62,014 bases of DNA from NCBI GenBank assembly GCA_945830395.1, contig CALZYE010000010.1:1-62014 (forward strand), given 5' to 3'. The notes below the pieces were generated by a model. That model did no database searches. It saw only the letters and a list, made by a program, of their open reading frames with translations, and was not told the origin of the DNA. Positions 445 through 50,936 of the stretch are shown one piece after another. This DNA is from an uncultured Clostridia bacterium. GTDB taxonomy: Bacteria > Bacillota > Clostridia > Peptostreptococcales > Anaerovoracaceae. Numbering within the stretch: the stretch's first letter is position 1; every line of letters begins with the position of its first letter. Position numbers and translations under genes: made by a program.

Positions 445-473
445 GAACGTATAACTTTGAAAAATTAAATAGA

Positions 474-619
474 CTCTTCGGTTAACGGAAAGAAGTGAGA
501 ACCTTCTACGGGAAACCGCTGTAAAGATGACGAAGCAGAATATGTCATTGAATTTCGCATAGACGGGATTTGAGAAGGCCTGCGGAGGATGAATCTAAGT
601 CAGAAGACGAATCGGAGAG
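474..619 (+). promoter_or_regulatory. Cobalamin (B12) riboswitch
   Basis: The leader follows the cobalamin aptamer consensus in order. Closing stem P1 is CTCTTCGGTT (474-483) with AATCGGAGAG (610-619), ten pairs including two G-U. Then come ACGGAAAGAAGTGAGAACC near 485-503, the core CCGCTGTAA with GACGAAGCA (517-537), a degenerate GTCATTG where GCCACTG is usual (544-550), GAGAAGGC followed by GGAGGATGAATC, and the B12-box-like AAGTCAGAAGAC (597-608). It lies between a promoter and an intrinsic terminator, so it should act by B12-induced premature termination on the surface protein gene that follows. The B12 box and GCCACTG variations do not disturb the overall match. Confidence 0.88.
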
Positions 620-692
620 AGCAAATATACGACTTTATATTTGGATTAAGGCGGTTATTTGCCGGCGTGCTGTAACCGGTTTTCATGTTACG

Positions 693-17820: not shown

Positions 17821-19563
17821 TTACTTTTCTATGTATCTCTTCACCTTGCCTGTGGTGGTCTTCACCATTTCCTGATGGGTAACCGTAAGGCGATGGATTC
17901 TCTTATATGCCGGCATACTGTCTGACAGCTTATCAATATCGCGGGAAATTATGCGTTGAATCTTATCACTATCCCAAGTTCCGAAATTGGATTTGAAGTA
18001 GTCCTTGTCGTAGACTATTTTCGCGCAGAGAACTAAATCTTTTGTATCTCCGTCTCTGTGCCTTGGACTTCCGTAGACGAGGCTTTCTTTGACATAAGGA
18101 AAGCCTGCGATCAGCGTTTCTATTTCCTCGGGATAAATATTTTTGCCGTTTTTCAGTACGATCACATTTTTTGCACGACCGCGAAGGAATACGAAGCCGT
18201 CGCTGTCCGTTTCGGCAAGGTCTCCTGTATGGAGCCAGCCGTCTATGAGTGTCTCTGAGGTTGCTTCGTAATCTTCGTAGTAGCCTGCCATAATATTGGA
18301 GCCCTTTGCAATTAGCTCACCCACGCCCTCCTCATTGGGGTTTATGATTTTAAGAGAAACTCCGGGCATGGCCTTGCCTATGGAACCTGCTTTTCTCGTG
18401 TTAGGATTTTCGGCTGTAAGTACGGGGGATGCCTCCGTCATACCGTAGCCCTGCACCAAGTCTATTCCAAGCTGATCAAAACCCTTTGCAACTTCAGGAT
18501 CAAGAGGAGATGCGCCGCTTATAATAAACCTCAGAGATCCGCCAAACTCCTTTATGATGTCGGAAAATATTTTTCTTCTGACATCTATGCGATGCCTGCG
18601 AAGAAAGTTTGATATTTTGATTCCTCGTGCCAGAGTTTTCTCTTTTTTCCTCTTCTTAACTCCCGCAAGGAGTTTTTTGTACATGGCCTCTATGAGAAGA
18701 GGAACGCAGATAAAGATGGAAACCTTGTATTCTGCCATGTTTTTCTGTATGTATTTCAGACCGTCGCAGAAAGTGGTGGTAACGCCTCTTGCCAGCATAA
18801 GCGTCTGTCCGGTGGAGCCGAATGTGTGGTGGAAAGGGAGAAATGCCATGTTTACATCGCCGGGCTGTATATCCTCAACCAGTTCCAGAGAATAGACATT
18901 TTCCAGAATATTAAATTGAGAAAGCATGACGGCCTTTGCATTGCTGGTGGTTCCTGAGGTGAAGAGCAGAACGCTTATGGCTTTCGGGTTAATCGGAAGC
19001 GTTCCGAATTCTTTATAACCGTTTTGCACAGCCTGTTTCCCCTTGTGGAGAATCCATGAGAAAAGCTCGTATCCTCTGATGTCCTCCATGCAGATATATG
19101 TGGAAATGCCGGTGTTTTCTGAAGCCTTTATTTTTCTTGCCATATCTTCATGTTCTTCGTCGAAGATTAGAATTTCAGACTTGCTTTTTATGAGGGAAGT
19201 TTCCACCTCATCGTATGGAAGTCCCTTGTCCAAAGGTACACAGACGCCGAGGCCGCAAAGGACTGCATAGTATGAAACCAGCCATTTATAGCTATTTTTG
19301 CCTATTATGGCAAAGCGTTTTCCGATAAGCTTTGACTTCATAAGTCCGGCGCCGAAGTTATCTATATCTTGTTTGAACTTCTTATACGAAATATGTTTGT
19401 ACTCTGCAGGCTTTCCTCCCTTGGCTTTCTTCTTCTTGAGGATGAAGGCGTCGCTGCTGCCGTAGTTTGATGCGGCGAAATTAATCAGGTCTCTAAAGTT
19501 TTCGTGCTTTGTGGCAGGATAGATAGGTGTTAGCTCAGGTACTGATATTACTTTATTTTCCAT
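17821..19563 (-). CDS. Long-chain acyl-CoA synthetase (AMP-binding)
   Basis: ATG at 19563 is preceded by GGAGA at good spacing; the longer open frame to 19647 crosses the promoter. The 580-residue enzyme shows the adenylation motifs of the AMP-binding superfamily: TSGTTSNAK (about residue 205), YGMTEASP, GWLHTGDLAETDSDGF (about 444) and GRAKNVIVLKNGKNIYPEE. It should activate fatty acids with ATP and CoA in the cytoplasm; FadD15-like long-chain synthetases are the closest type I recognise. It is transcribed alone and divergent from the aromatic operon. The exact substrate chain cannot be read from sequence. Confidence 0.87.
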   Translation of the reverse strand: MENKVISVPELTPIYPATKHENFRDLINFAASNYGSSDAFILKKKKAKGGKPAEYKHISYKKFKQDIDNFGAGLMKSKLIGKRFAIIGKNSYKWLVSYYAVLCGLGVCVPLDKGLPYDEVETSLIKSKSEILIFDEEHEDMARKIKASENTGISTYICMEDIRGYELFSWILHKGKQAVQNGYKEFGTLPINPKAISVLLFTSGTTSNAKAVMLSQFNILENVYSLELVEDIQPGDVNMAFLPFHHTFGSTGQTLMLARGVTTTFCDGLKYIQKNMAEYKVSIFICVPLLIEAMYKKLLAGVKKRKKEKTLARGIKISNFLRRHRIDVRRKIFSDIIKEFGGSLRFIISGASPLDPEVAKGFDQLGIDLVQGYGMTEASPVLTAENPNTRKAGSIGKAMPGVSLKIINPNEEGVGELIAKGSNIMAGYYEDYEATSETLIDGWLHTGDLAETDSDGFVFLRGRAKNVIVLKNGKNIYPEEIETLIAGFPYVKESLVYGSPRHRDGDTKDLVLCAKIVYDKDYFKSNFGTWDSDKIQRIISRDIDKLSDSMPAYKRIHRLTVTHQEMVKTTTGKVKRYIEK

Positions 19564-19600
19564 AAGTTCTCCAATCGTTTTTTTACATATAAGCACATAA

Positions 19601-19630
19601 ATTATACCATAATGTTGATGAATTATGTAA
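19601..19630 (-). promoter_or_regulatory. Promoter of the acyl-CoA synthetase gene
   Basis: On the minus strand TTACAT (19630-19625) and TATAAT (19606-19601) are 18 bases apart, about 38 bases upstream of the ATG. A 22-base stretch covering most of it recurs with three changes at 19889-19910 in the aromatic leader. Confidence 0.55.
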
Positions 19631-19793
19631 AATAATTTTATTGTCAAAATTTTTTAAAAGCCTCTCGAAATTGTTTGCAGGCAACAAAAAAACTTGCAGG
19701 AGTTTATGAAATTTGTAAAAAAATAATATAAAGCCTTGAAAACATAATAAAAATATGTTAATGTGTTACTACGAAACGAAAGGTAGAAATGTG

Positions 19794-19883
19794 ATGAAGA
19801 ACTTGTATTACACAGCAGAATATTATTACAGCTTTTTCTTATTAAACATAGAAAAGGCATTTTGCTGTACAGAGATTCTTTAG
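19794..19883 (+). CDS. Tyr/Phe-rich attenuator leader peptide (29 residues)
   Basis: A 29-codon ORF begins at ATG 19794 behind AAAGGTAG and ends at TAG 19881. Eight of its 29 residues are aromatic: Tyr codons 5-6 and 10-12, Phe codons 14-15 and 23; it has no Trp. The core reads YYTAEYYYSFF. It lies 93 bases upstream of the DAHP synthase gene and overlaps alternative RNA stems and an intrinsic terminator, so the ribosome would sense charged tRNA-Tyr and tRNA-Phe by stalling here. It is too short to be found by ordinary gene callers. Confidence 0.82.
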   Translation: MKNLYYTAEYYYSFFLLNIEKAFCCTEIL

Positions 19884-19944
19884 ATTTAACCCATATTGTT
19901 GATGAATTATAAATCCTTACAGCAGATGTTGTAGGGATTTTTTT
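19812..19944 (+). promoter_or_regulatory. Ribosome-mediated transcription attenuator of the aromatic operon
   Basis: Four segments alternate. Segment 1 is ACAGCAGAA (19812-19820) and TACAGC (19827-19832), inside or beside the Tyr codons. Segment 2 is TTTTGCTGTA (19860-19869). Segment 3 is TACAGCA (19918-19924). Segment 4 is TGTAGGGATTT (19930-19940). Segments 3 and 4 lie in the terminator: AAATCCTTACA (19911-19921) pairs with 19930-19940 over eleven pairs before a T-run. Segment 2 can pair with segment 1 or with segment 3. Stalling at the Tyr or Phe codons would free segment 2 to pair with 3 and block the terminator; fast translation to the stop would cover segment 2 and let it form. No T-box motif is present. 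Confidence 0.82.
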
Positions 19945-19975
19945 ATGAATCAACCGAAAGACTTTGGAGGTAGTT

Positions 19976-20977
19976 ATGGTTACGGTATTAAAGGCGGGTA
20001 CATCTCATGAACAAAAACTAATGCTCATACACTGGTTTGAGGAACAGGGACTTCGCGTCCACGAATATGAAAATGACAATCAGGTTGTCATAGGCCTCAT
20101 CGGCGATACATCGGCAATAGACATGGAAATGCTGGAACTTTTGGATATAGTGGACCATGTTGCGGAAATTTCCGAGCCGTTTAAGAAAGCCAACCGAAAG
20201 TTTCATCCCGAAGATTCTGTTATAGATGTGAAAGAAAACAAAATCGGAGGCGGAAACTTTGCCGTTATTGCAGGTCCCTGCTCCGTTGAAACGGAGGAAC
20301 AGATCATAGAGGTTGCAAAGTCCGTAAAGAAGTCGGGGGCAGCTATGCTTCGCGGAGGAGCGTTCAAACCCAGAACATCACCCTATGATTTTCAGGGGCT
20401 GAAGGCGGAAGGCCTTAAGCTTTTGCTTGAAGCAAAGAGAGCTACAGGGCTTCCCATCGTAACGGAGATAATGAATCAGGATCACCTTGATTTATTTGAA
20501 GATGTGGATGTGATTCAGGTGGGAGCAAGAAACATGCAGAACTTTGAGCTGCTCAAGGAACTCGGCAAGACGAAAAAGCCTATTCTGCTCAAAAGAGGGC
20601 TTGCAAACACCATAAAGGAGCTTTTGATGAGCGCAGAATATATAATGAGCGGAGGGAATGAGAACATTATTCTTTGCGAGAGAGGAATAAGAACCTTTGA
20701 AACATATACGAGAAATACTCTGGATCTATCGGTGATTCCCGTTTTACACAATTTGACCCATCTTCCGGTGGTGGTTGATCCCAGTCATGCAACGGGACAT
20801 GCAAACTTGGTTGAGCCTATGGCAATGGCAGCTGCGGCATGCGGGGCTGACGGCATCATGATTGAGGTTCACAATAATCCGCCTATGGCACTGTGCGACG
20901 GTGCTCAATCTCTGACGCCGGATCAATTTAAAAATACGATGGAAAAAATTTTGAAGATTAGGAAGGTGCTGATATGA
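19976..20977 (+). CDS. aroF: 3-deoxy-7-phosphoheptulonate (DAHP) synthase
   Basis: It catalyses the first step of the shikimate pathway, joining PEP and erythrose 4-phosphate. The start is ATG 19976, six bases after GGAGG, giving 333 residues. An N-terminal ferredoxin-like regulatory domain (1-70) precedes a class I-beta barrel with AGPCSVE (about 98-104) and RGGAFKPRTSPYDFQG. The catalytic and metal-binding residues of the barrel (VDPSHATG, KRG) are present. This small type with an N-terminal domain is common in Firmicutes, where that domain can mediate feedback control. It is the first structural gene behind the Tyr/Phe attenuator. Confidence 0.95.
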   Translation: MVTVLKAGTSHEQKLMLIHWFEEQGLRVHEYENDNQVVIGLIGDTSAIDMEMLELLDIVDHVAEISEPFKKANRKFHPEDSVIDVKENKIGGGNFAVIAGPCSVETEEQIIEVAKSVKKSGAAMLRGGAFKPRTSPYDFQGLKAEGLKLLLEAKRATGLPIVTEIMNQDHLDLFEDVDVIQVGARNMQNFELLKELGKTKKPILLKRGLANTIKELLMSAEYIMSGGNENIILCERGIRTFETYTRNTLDLSVIPVLHNLTHLPVVVDPSHATGHANLVEPMAMAAAACGADGIMIEVHNNPPMALCDGAQSLTPDQFKNTMEKILKIRKVLI

Positions 20978-24224: not shown

Positions 24225-24773
24225 ATGAATTTGTTAGCTGAATTATTTATAGCATTTGCAAGGATTGGAGCGTTTACCTTCGGAGGCGGATATGCTATGC
24301 TTCCCATGATTAAGCGAGAGATTGTGGAAAAACACCATTGGGCATCGGAGCAGGAGGTGCTTGACTATTTTGCAATAGGTCAGGTTACACCGGGGATAAT
24401 AGCTGTTAACACGGCAACCTTTATAGGCTATAAGATGGCAGGAGTTGCCGGCGGCGTAGCGGCAACCGTGGGTGTGATTTTTCCGTCGGTGGTGATAATA
24501 AGCATAGTGGCGGCTTTTTTTACAAGCTTTGCCGACTTGCCGGTGGTTGCCCACGCCTTTAACGGAATAAGGGCGTGCGTCTGTGTGTTGATTTTAAGTG
24601 CGGTATACGATATGGCAAAGAAATCTGTAATAGATTTTCCGGCGGCGATAATTTTTATAGCGGTTGCAGCCGCTGCCGCAATGAATATAATTTCACCTTT
24701 TTTTCTCGTGGTGATTTCGGGGGCTTTCGGCGTGGTTATACAGCTTATTAAGGCAAGAAAGCAGGTAAAGTAA
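24225..24773 (+). CDS. Chromate-transporter family protein, half 1
   Basis: 182 residues, about six membrane helices. The CHR signature FGGGYAMLPMIKREIVE sits in the first helix region, followed by the PGIIAVNTATFIGY motif. Half-size CHR proteins work as pairs, and the second half follows without a gap. Chromate is an unlikely physiological substrate here. Both lie inside the aromatic operon between aroC and pheA, so transport of a pathway-related anion is a possible role, by context only. Confidence 0.88.
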   Translation: MNLLAELFIAFARIGAFTFGGGYAMLPMIKREIVEKHHWASEQEVLDYFAIGQVTPGIIAVNTATFIGYKMAGVAGGVAATVGVIFPSVVIISIVAAFFTSFADLPVVAHAFNGIRACVCVLILSAVYDMAKKSVIDFPAAIIFIAVAAAAAMNIISPFFLVVISGAFGVVIQLIKARKQVK

Positions 24774-25331
24774 ATGAATGAAATTTTCCTGCTCGCATAT
24801 CATTTTTTTATTACAGGGCTCTTTGCAGTTGGCGGAGGCCTTGCAACACTCCCGTTTCTGTACGACATGGGGCGTAAAACGGGGTGGTTTGATGCGGCTG
24901 ATGTGGCGAACATGGTGGCAATAGCCCAGAGCACGCCCGGTCCTACCGGAATAAACATGGCTACATATGTGGGATTTCATCGGTTTGGAATCTTGGGAGC
25001 CGTTGTAGGCACAGCCTCCATAGTTTTCCCCTCAATAGTGATAATAATCATAATCTCCAAAGCGCTGACCAGATTCAAAGAATCACAGTTGGTACAAGAT
25101 ATATTCTACGGGTTGAGACCTGCCTCCACAGGACTTATCCTTGCAGCAGCATTTGGCGTAATACAAATATCTCTGATTAATATGGGAAATACGGGGGATT
25201 TTATCGGTTATTTCAGATTTCCCGAATTGACACTTGCGGCATTAATTTTTCTACTGCATAAGTGGAAAAAGCCTCATCCGATTTTTCTCATAGTTATGGC
25301 AGGGATAATCGGAGTGGTTTTTAAGATATAG
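24774..25331 (+). CDS. Chromate-transporter family protein, half 2
   Basis: 185 residues with about six membrane helices, starting on the base after the stop of the first half. The second-half signature GGGLATLPFLYDMGRKTGWF and the PGPTGINMATYVGF motif are present. The two halves together make up one typical full-length ChrA transporter, so a heterodimer is expected. Its place in an amino acid operon suggests a substrate other than chromate. Confidence 0.88.
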   Translation: MNEIFLLAYHFFITGLFAVGGGLATLPFLYDMGRKTGWFDAADVANMVAIAQSTPGPTGINMATYVGFHRFGILGAVVGTASIVFPSIVIIIIISKALTRFKESQLVQDIFYGLRPASTGLILAAAFGVIQISLINMGNTGDFIGYFRFPELTLAALIFLLHKWKKPHPIFLIVMAGIIGVVFKI

Positions 25332-27010: not shown

Positions 27011-28198
27011 ATGTATAATTTTGCTTTAATTGGGGGAAGTCTTTCCCACAGCTATTCTCCGATGATTCACAGTAAGTTCGGAGATTACAAGTATGAACTT
27101 TGCGAAGTGGAAGAAAAAGACTTGGAAGATTTACTGATGTCGGGTAAATATGACGGATTCAATGTAACCATTCCGTATAAAGAAAAAATTATGGATTATT
27201 GTGATGAAATAAGCAACGACAGCCGCCGCATAGGAGCGGTGAATACTATAGTGAGAGATGCAGACGGCAGGTATGTGGGGTATAATACGGATTATTTCGG
27301 TTTCAGATATCTTTTAGAAAACAGCGATATTGATGTGGCGGGAAGAAAATGTTTGATTCTCGGTTCCGGCGGCGGTTCTAAGACCGTCTCGGTAGTACTT
27401 CAGGATTTAGGAGCCAGAGAAATTATTGTGGTATCGCGAAAAGGCGAAGTTAATTACAGAAGCATTAAAGAGCAGGAGGATGCGGAGATAATAGTAAATG
27501 CCACACCTGTGGGTATGTTCCCAAGTAACATGGTTAGCCTGATAAATCTGAACGATTTTCCAAATTGCGCAGGAGTGGTGGATTTGATTTATAATCCATA
27601 CAGAACGCAGCTGATTTTAGATGCCATGGAGAAACAAATACCGGCAGTTTCGGGACTTGGCATGTTAGTTGCTCAGGGATTTAGGGCAAGTGAACTTTTT
27701 CAGGGGAAGGAACTTGATGCAGATGAAATTCCCATTGCCATTGAAGAAGTGAGAGATGCAACTTTGAACAGAATCTTAATAGGAATGCCGGGGGCAGGAA
27801 AGACTTTTTTGGGAGCAAAAATGGCAGAAGGTACCGGCAGAGAGTTTGTAGATATAGATGATGAAATTGAGTCTGCCGAAGCCATGAGTATTCCGCAAAT
27901 TTTCAAAGAAAAGGGAGAAGCCTATTTCAGAAAACTGGAGACAGAAAAGCTCAGAGAAACCTGCAAACGCAGAGGGCTGATAATCGCCACCGGGGGAGGC
28001 GTCGTAACGGTGAAAGAAAACTGCAAAATTATGAGGCAGAACGGCACGGTCATATGGGTTAAGCGAGATTTGGACAAACTTGAAACGCAAGGAAGACCCA
28101 TTTCAAAATCAGTTCCCCTGTACCGGCTGTATGACCAACGAAAGGACGCATACGAGGGTTGGAGCGATTTTTTCATAGACAACAATGAAGATCTGTAG
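27011..28198 (+). CDS. aroE-aroK: Shikimate dehydrogenase - shikimate kinase fusion
   Basis: 395 residues. Residues 1-245 are shikimate dehydrogenase: GGSLSHSYSPMIHSKF, NVTIPYKEKIM with the catalytic Lys, GAVNTIV, the nucleotide loop GSGGGSKT, and NATPVGMFP. From about 255 a shikimate kinase follows: P-loop GMPGAGKT, the DIDDEIE shikimate- and Mg-binding motif, YFRKLETEKL and TGGGVV, ending without the usual full C-terminal helix. Steps four and five of the shikimate pathway are thus in one chain. The operon has no separate aroE or aroK, so the fusion is presumably active in both parts. Confidence 0.93.
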   Translation: MYNFALIGGSLSHSYSPMIHSKFGDYKYELCEVEEKDLEDLLMSGKYDGFNVTIPYKEKIMDYCDEISNDSRRIGAVNTIVRDADGRYVGYNTDYFGFRYLLENSDIDVAGRKCLILGSGGGSKTVSVVLQDLGAREIIVVSRKGEVNYRSIKEQEDAEIIVNATPVGMFPSNMVSLINLNDFPNCAGVVDLIYNPYRTQLILDAMEKQIPAVSGLGMLVAQGFRASELFQGKELDADEIPIAIEEVRDATLNRILIGMPGAGKTFLGAKMAEGTGREFVDIDDEIESAEAMSIPQIFKEKGEAYFRKLETEKLRETCKRRGLIIATGGGVVTVKENCKIMRQNGTVIWVKRDLDKLETQGRPISKSVPLYRLYDQRKDAYEGWSDFFIDNNEDL

Positions 28199-50730: not shown

Positions 50731-50936
50731 GGAGTTCCCCTTTCCATCAATAAAAAAGAGCCTGATTTTCAGCAGAACTTAATCTGTAACGATTTCAGCA
50801 AAAGTCCACGCTAAAAGCAGTCTCACATTCTTCTTCTCTACACAGAGTCTCATTTGGTTACAATATAAGCTCGTAAAAAATTTTTATAAAAAAATATATA
50901 TCGGAGTATGGCTTTACCTGTAAATGCCATCTCCAC

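Follow-up and report, generated by a model that had tools for sequence, protein, structure and literature searches.

A putative Tyr/Phe leader-peptide attenuator upstream of the aroF operon in Clostridia

The classical amino acid attenuators of Proteobacteria include pheL, trpL, and hisL, and attenuators are generally assumed to switch kinetically. Leader-peptide attenuation has also been described in Firmicutes, with his leader peptides of bacilli that stand in place of T-boxes (PMC2965389), an ilv-leu leader peptide of S. aureus (PMC5794164), and the tabulated Leu/phe leader RF01743 of Lactococcus (PMC2864571). For aroF itself, the uORFC-13-1 motif is described as an upstream ORF (uORF) with at least one Phe codon just before a terminator 5' of Acholeplasma aroF; its 24 representatives come only from Acholeplasma and environmental sequences, and the authors propose attenuation (PMC8632094). 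A study of five genomes, one of them that of Clostridium novyi, lists two uORFs with Phe and Tyr codons for shikimate genes, and these may be of the same kind as the clostridial aroF leaders discussed below (PMC6429828). Predicted histidyl-tRNA-dependent structures lie 5' of hisZ of C. difficile and bacilli (PMC4833913), and an unassigned cis element lies 5' of aroFBC-tyrA in Enterococcus faecium (PMC4448216). The locus considered here is located in a stretch of 62,014 nucleotides (the window) from an uncultured member of the Anaerovoracaceae (GCA_945830395.1, contig CALZYE010000010.1).

The leader and the operon behind it

Translation of the region upstream of aroF returned the ORF with five Tyr and three Phe codons that the first-pass annotation had described (Table 1), and the codon pattern TAYTAYTAYNNNTTYTTY matches it at 19821-19838. 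Two features by which attenuators are recognized, a short ORF with a ribosome-binding site 5' of an operon and codons for the amino acids made by that operon, are both present. The upstream neighbor of the leader is a long ORF at 17821-19647 and, because this ORF lies on the other strand, the terminator hairpin behind the leader does not belong to it. A search of 19600-20000 for a sigma-70 consensus promoter gave no match.

The aroF gene encodes the first enzyme of the shikimate pathway and is followed by further aromatic biosynthesis genes, with which it presumably forms one transcript. Among them are genes for prephenate dehydrogenase and prephenate dehydratase, matching the Tyr and Phe codons of the leader. 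Assignments for aroA, aroC, and the dehydroquinase exceeded the NCBIfam cut-offs, and most other downstream genes were assigned from best-ranked matches below them. Two short chromate-transporter-like genes are inserted between aroC and the prephenate dehydratase gene (24225-25331), the first with a chromate efflux family match below cut-off and the second judged by eye. In the ORF at 27011-28198, a match to shikimate dehydrogenase is followed by one to shikimate kinase, which makes it an apparent aroE-aroK fusion. Elsewhere in the window, a cobalamin riboswitch (462-630, plus strand) and a pan motif (50841-50933, minus strand) scored over their Rfam cut-offs.

Table 1. Features of the leader region and the aroF operon in the window
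Feature	Position	Strand	Remarks
SD-like GAAAGG	19778-19783	+	ten bases 5' of the leader ORF
Leader ORF	19794-19883	+	29 codons, translation MKNLYYTAEYYYSFFLLNIEKAFCCTEIL
Regulatory codons Tyr5, Tyr6, Tyr10, Tyr11, Tyr12, Phe14, Phe15	19806-19838	+	from the translation
Segment 1, CACAGCAGAAT	19811-19821	+	minimum-energy fold; partner of segment 2 when ribosome-free
Segment 2, core ATTTTGCTGTACAG at 19859-19872	19857-19877	+	from folding; partner is segment 1 (protector) or segment 3 (antiterminator)
Phe23 codon of the leader ORF	19860-19862	+	
Leader stop codon	19881-19883	+	just past segment 2
Intrinsic terminator (segments 3:4)	19911-19944	+	13 pairs in 19911-19940, loop of 4, T-run to 19944
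Segment 3, core TTACAGCAGATG at 19917-19928	19912-19929	+	shared by the antiterminator (3' side) and the terminator (5' arm); nascent-RNA fold
aroF, DAHP synthase	19976-20977	+	333 aa; NF006421 490 bits, TIGR01361 404 bits, both over cut-off
Downstream same-strand genes	from 20974	+	prephenate dehydrogenase, aroA, aroC, two chromate-transporter-like genes
Further downstream genes	to 28737	+	chorismate mutase/prephenate dehydratase, chorismate mutase, shikimate dehydrogenase-shikimate kinase fusion, type II dehydroquinase

Alternative structures of the leader RNA

The leader RNA folds far more stably than its dinucleotide shuffles (z -6.1), none of 200 being equally stable. In the minimum-energy fold, 19812-19821 pairs with 19859-19868 within a long hairpin, which also joins the Phe-codon stretch to a purine-rich stretch. 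The repeats on which the first-pass annotation had commented, TACAGC (19827-19832), GCTGTA (19864-19869), and TACAGCA (19918-19924), are located as claimed, and the two mutually exclusive pairings proposed there, 1:2 and 2:3, were both seen in simulated folds. Two details had to be corrected: TACAGC at 19827, taken for segment 1, does repeat, but in the minimum-energy fold segment 2 pairs with CACAGCAGAAT instead, and the terminator, given as eleven pairs, was computed with 13. This intrinsic terminator lies between the leader ORF and the first gene, as in an attenuator; four of its pairs are G-C, and it is the one terminator-like site found in the leader, against a shuffle mean of 0.1.

Simulated ribosome positions gave distinct folds of the nascent RNA. 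When transcription has reached 19929 and the ribosome sits on Tyr10 or Tyr5, the 2:3 antiterminator forms, which for the Tyr10 ribosome consists of 19857-19877 paired with 19912-19929, while the untranslated RNA forms 1:2. A ribosome at the stop codon leaves nascent RNA with only a weak hairpin of -2.8 kcal/mol, made of segment 3 and the spacer, and the full RNA adopts the terminator once this has been transcribed. The share of the terminator 5' arm that is paired upstream was 0.90 in the stalled state, 0.63 without translation, and 0.48 with the ribosome at the stop codon; shuffling the spacers in the stalled state reduced it to 0.38. In full-length RNA with a stalled ribosome the terminator is still favored at equilibrium, and the switch must therefore be kinetic, being decided during transcription.

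Occurrence and pairing of leaders in relatives

Homologs of AroF were found in 120 of 148 genomes of the family, 147 of 196 of the class, and 109 of 119 of the phylum. The upstream regions read comprised 110 from the family (109 usable, the window, L082, among them), 87 from the class outside the family (85 usable), the 29 best-scoring new loci of the phylum (28 from other classes), and the best 80 of at least 585 confirmed stretches from a named collection, two of which were too short. Second copies from some genomes are in the family set, from which short-type homologs and some other second copies were left out; the sets overlap through near-identical loci (e.g., L002 and L083) and favor better-scoring loci. 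A leader was accepted as an ORF of 10-45 codons that has at least six Tyr plus Phe within a stretch of 12 codons as well as an SD-like motif, and whose terminator reaches at least -8 kcal/mol in stability.

Under this definition, a leader with terminator precedes aroF in 51/109 family loci (window included), in 49 of the 78 loci usable among the best 80 of at least 585 named-collection stretches, in 45/85 better-scoring loci of the class outside the family, and in 6/28 better-scoring loci from other classes; at least one leader occurs in 24 of the 38 families in the class sample. The ORF and its Tyr/Phe bias recur in front of aroF, and the check that was to refute the first-pass reading, a lack of either in relatives, did not do so. 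Shuffled controls passed in 0/545 (family), 1/390 (named collection), 0/425 (class), and 0/140 (other classes) cases, the reverse strand yielded no leader in any of the four locus sets, and natural 400-nt stretches away from the aroF upstream region passed once in 1070. In each sample, no leader could be detected at about half of the aroF loci, and none was found at the 20 divergent aroF loci L297-L316. With a lenient criterion, a hairpin and T-run followed 114 of 115 leader-like ORFs in relatives, a few of these being false leaders. Seven loci with a Tyr/Phe-rich ORF 5' of the same aroF type carry unexpected contig labels (L005, L008, L044, L054, L057, L066, and L080; Treponema, Treponemataceae, Lentisphaerae, Sutterella, and Thermoguttaceae), with an SD-like motif in L005, L044, and L054 only; they reflect either transfer or mis-binned contigs.

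Among the matches listed, the closest named AroF is that of Aminicella lysinilytica (83% identity), and the nearest relative found (L320, AroF 85% identity) has a leader reading MKNLSVAAKYYYYYYFFFNNREEAFCCTERSREI. A codon pattern of five Tyr and two Phe occurs once each in 8 of 17 genomes of the genus, in all eight just 5' of aroF, and the same pattern read backward has no match in the 17. In the window's own genome the pattern takes a looser form, whose only other match there lies inside a long ORF, and one member of the genus (G004, locus L152, AroF 63% identical) has aroF without a detectable leader. Leader peptides of the genus conserve a FAAEYYYYYFFF-like core. Across 13 aligned leaders, the CAGC of segment 1 never varies and the TTTTGCTGYA of segment 2 hardly does; at the latter motif the peptide reads CCT, FAA, or LLQ in three frames, or has already ended. 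Since the motif stays constant while the reading frame shifts, it is the RNA and not the peptide that is conserved. One genus member carries a second aroF-like stretch upstream of its leader-controlled aroF (L319, 1721-2443, minus strand; 70% identity over query 89-329).

Judged by eye, the leaders fall into two layouts. In the short form, to which the window belongs, the peptide has a FAAEYY-like start, segment 1 lies where the Tyr/Phe run begins, and segment 2 lies at the stop codon. The longer form, found in several families, has two Tyr/Phe blocks, with segment 2 about a dozen codons further on, near the far end; in L242, for instance, TAATGAGTC near the end of the ORF and GACTCATTA in the terminator are exactly complementary. 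A GYF- or GYL-like tail is common to the longer leaders L242, L251, L267, and L277.

For tests of pairing, 150 leaders were kept, of which 119 remained as a non-redundant set once near-duplicate peptides had been taken out. ORFs lacking an SD-like motif and terminators weaker than -8 kcal/mol had been filtered out beforehand, as had seven rows by hand, namely L269 (T-box), L196 (T-box-like by eye), L055 (terminator misplaced), and L063, L232, L218, and L220 (not leader-like by eye), some of which fail the SD or terminator filters anyway. The removal of L218 and L220 may have been wrong, given the peptide tail that they have in common with L050: all three are small ORFs 5' of aroF with a SAFY...RWRKF tail and Trp codons, with no clear terminator assigned, and may represent a further leader type. 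The 119 leaders contain 515 Tyr, 563 Phe, and 25 Trp among 3439 residues.

In these 119 loci, segment 2 paired preferentially with its own terminator arm (mean rank 0.25 among the arms of other loci), and the residual of the 2:3 interaction was -2.93 versus 0.02 kcal/mol, with 0/20,000 permutations as low. The residual amounted to -3.78 in the 67 loci without TGCTGY and -1.85 in the 52 that have this motif. The first sets, tested earlier with 107 leaders and without hand removal, led to the same outcome (mean rank 0.27 for both 2:3 and 1:2, KS p <1e-12). Shared ancestry is a caveat for such tests, yet it should weaken rather than create the 2:3 signal, because relatives served as swap partners. 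The variable base of segment 2 (TGCTGC/TGCTGT) was associated neither with segment 3 (Fisher p 0.35) nor with segment 1 (Fisher p 1.0) in the non-redundant loci, and the motif is absent from 81 of the 150 loci in the single-site table. Single-site covariation, not being significant, was set aside as support, and the case is carried by the energy-based, locus-specific tests. The compensating stem changes that the first pass had proposed to look for are borne out as locus-specific complementarity, not by the single-site table; 2:3 is exclusive with 1:2 and 3:4 and is kept by compensating changes.

Across the 119 leaders, too, the fate of the terminator 5' arm depended on where the simulated ribosome was placed. 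Its share paired with upstream RNA was 0.73 in the stalled state, 0.47 without translation, and 0.34 with the ribosome at the stop codon, and it was 0.51 when spacers were shuffled. The stalled value exceeded the untranslated one in 110/119 leaders; for single leaders, p<=0.05 was reached in only 59/119, and some, such as L277, were without effect.

Interpretation and comparison with known systems

It is very improbable that the window carries a T-box or another tRNA- or metabolite-binding leader that ends in the terminator, with the ORF there by coincidence. T-box elements do occur elsewhere: in the window's genome, four T-box-like leaders, none of which reaches the Rfam cut-off, lie 5' of genes that by eye look like valS, ileS, thrS, and a trpB-like gene, with none 5' of aroF, and a T-box over the cut-off lies on the aroF strand in 6 of 80 aroF upstream regions scanned (60 from the class, 20 leaderless ones from the family), namely L254, L261, L262, L269, L161, and L164, of which L161 and L164 stem from the 20 family loci chosen for scanning as leaderless. 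However, none of these six loci has a Tyr/Phe leader under the above definition, and the ORF recurs at aroF against almost no hits among shuffles and natural stretches. On the window leader itself no Rfam family, T-box RF00230 included, reached its gathering threshold, in line with the first-pass statement that no T-box is present. No T-box match exceeded the cut-off anywhere in the window, and none is among the nine weak matches (E<=5) in the leader region. The same holds for the amino acid leader families (Phe, Leu/phe, Trp, and His leaders): none scored over its cut-off and none is among the nine. A weak match to ncr1575 does cover the leader (30.5 bits, E 0.0099), but this family needs 60 bits and the match was taken as chance. 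Among 59 class loci, a T-box was present in 0/29 with a leader versus 4/30 without (p 0.11), counts that are consistent with mutual exclusion of leader and T-box at aroF and are not significant alone. In the two family members L161 and L164, a tRNA match lies on the strand opposite to the aroF T-box (559-620 and 531-603, respectively).

Two other readings place the function in the peptide. A functional small hydrophobic protein, with the hairpin simply its terminator, would account for the core that is constant in the genus, and is nevertheless highly improbable: the peptides differ widely by eye apart from their Tyr/Phe richness, their tails change frame over a constant RNA motif, all eight strict-pattern matches in the genus stand before aroF while the other looser-pattern match in the window's genome sits within a long ORF, and the terminator arm pairs specifically with the RNA of its own leader. 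A TnaC-like peptide-arrest switch, in which the nascent peptide would sense free Tyr or Phe in place of codons sensing charged tRNA, could be suggested by the GYF-like tail that follows the Tyr/Phe run in some longer leaders. By eye, however, no position outside the Tyr/Phe run is common across families, and Tyr and Phe differ in number and order from leader to leader, as codon sensing predicts, which makes arrest quite improbable.

Judging from sequence and computation, the window leader is very probably a ribosome-mediated classical transcription attenuator that is predicted to sense charged tRNA-Tyr and tRNA-Phe and to control the aroF operon. The interpretation as classical leader-peptide attenuation, already put forward at first pass, is supported by the relatives, the pairing tests, and the simulated folds; its basis comprises the leader ORF with its Tyr/Phe cluster, the terminator, and the exclusive 1:2/2:3 pairings, together with the recurrence of this arrangement and its locus-specific complementarity in relatives. 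When Tyr and Phe are plentiful, the ribosome would reach the leader stop codon and cover segment 2, allowing the 3:4 terminator to form. When Tyr or Phe is short, it would stall on the Tyr/Phe run and cover segment 1, whereupon 2:3 would pair and transcription would proceed into aroF. If the leader is not translated, 1:2 and 3:4 would form and transcription would end. The leader would be expected to respond to both amino acids.

Beyond this locus, it seems rather likely that predicted ribosome-mediated attenuators with double Tyr/Phe sensing form a largely undocumented class that in Clostridia controls the entry enzyme of the shikimate pathway more commonly than any other recognizable element, reaches neighboring classes, occurs in at least two layouts, trades places with T-boxes at the same gene, and has kept its pairings through extensive sequence turnover. 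Clostridia are reputed users of T-boxes; if this view is true, translation-coupled attenuation would be common in many clostridial families, a natural series would be available for studying the exchange of T-boxes and leader peptides at a single gene, and it could be predicted how many gut Clostridia tune their Tyr and Phe synthesis.

In the openly readable literature searched, no account of a clostridial aroF attenuator with Tyr/Phe codons was found. The novelty claimed at first pass holds to that extent, and is narrowed by what has already been reported, namely leader-peptide attenuators in Firmicutes (PMC2965389), a uORF at Acholeplasma aroF (PMC8632094), and the two Phe/Tyr uORFs for shikimate genes (PMC6429828). 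New aspects seem to be the gene and the lineage concerned, the combination of Tyr and Phe, and how widely such leaders occur, the mechanism itself being classical.

Compared by description only, uORFC-13-1 and the window leader both combine a uORF with a terminator 5' of aroF, and the part of the description at hand mentions no Tyr run, unlike the window leader (PMC8632094). The his leaders of bacilli, the ilv-leu leader of S. aureus, and the Leu/phe leader of Lactococcus likewise represent leader-peptide attenuation in Firmicutes and concern other amino acids, genes, and lineages. The T-box RF00230, found 5' of aroF in six relatives, also controls amino acid genes by termination, but it binds tRNA directly without translation, unlike the window leader. 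With pheL, trpL, and hisL the leader has in common an ORF rich in codons for the product, the alternative pairings 1:2, 2:3, and 3:4, a stop codon at segment 2, and a terminator before the operon; it differs from them in its host lineage, in combining Tyr and Phe in one leader, and in preceding the first gene of a whole shikimate operon.
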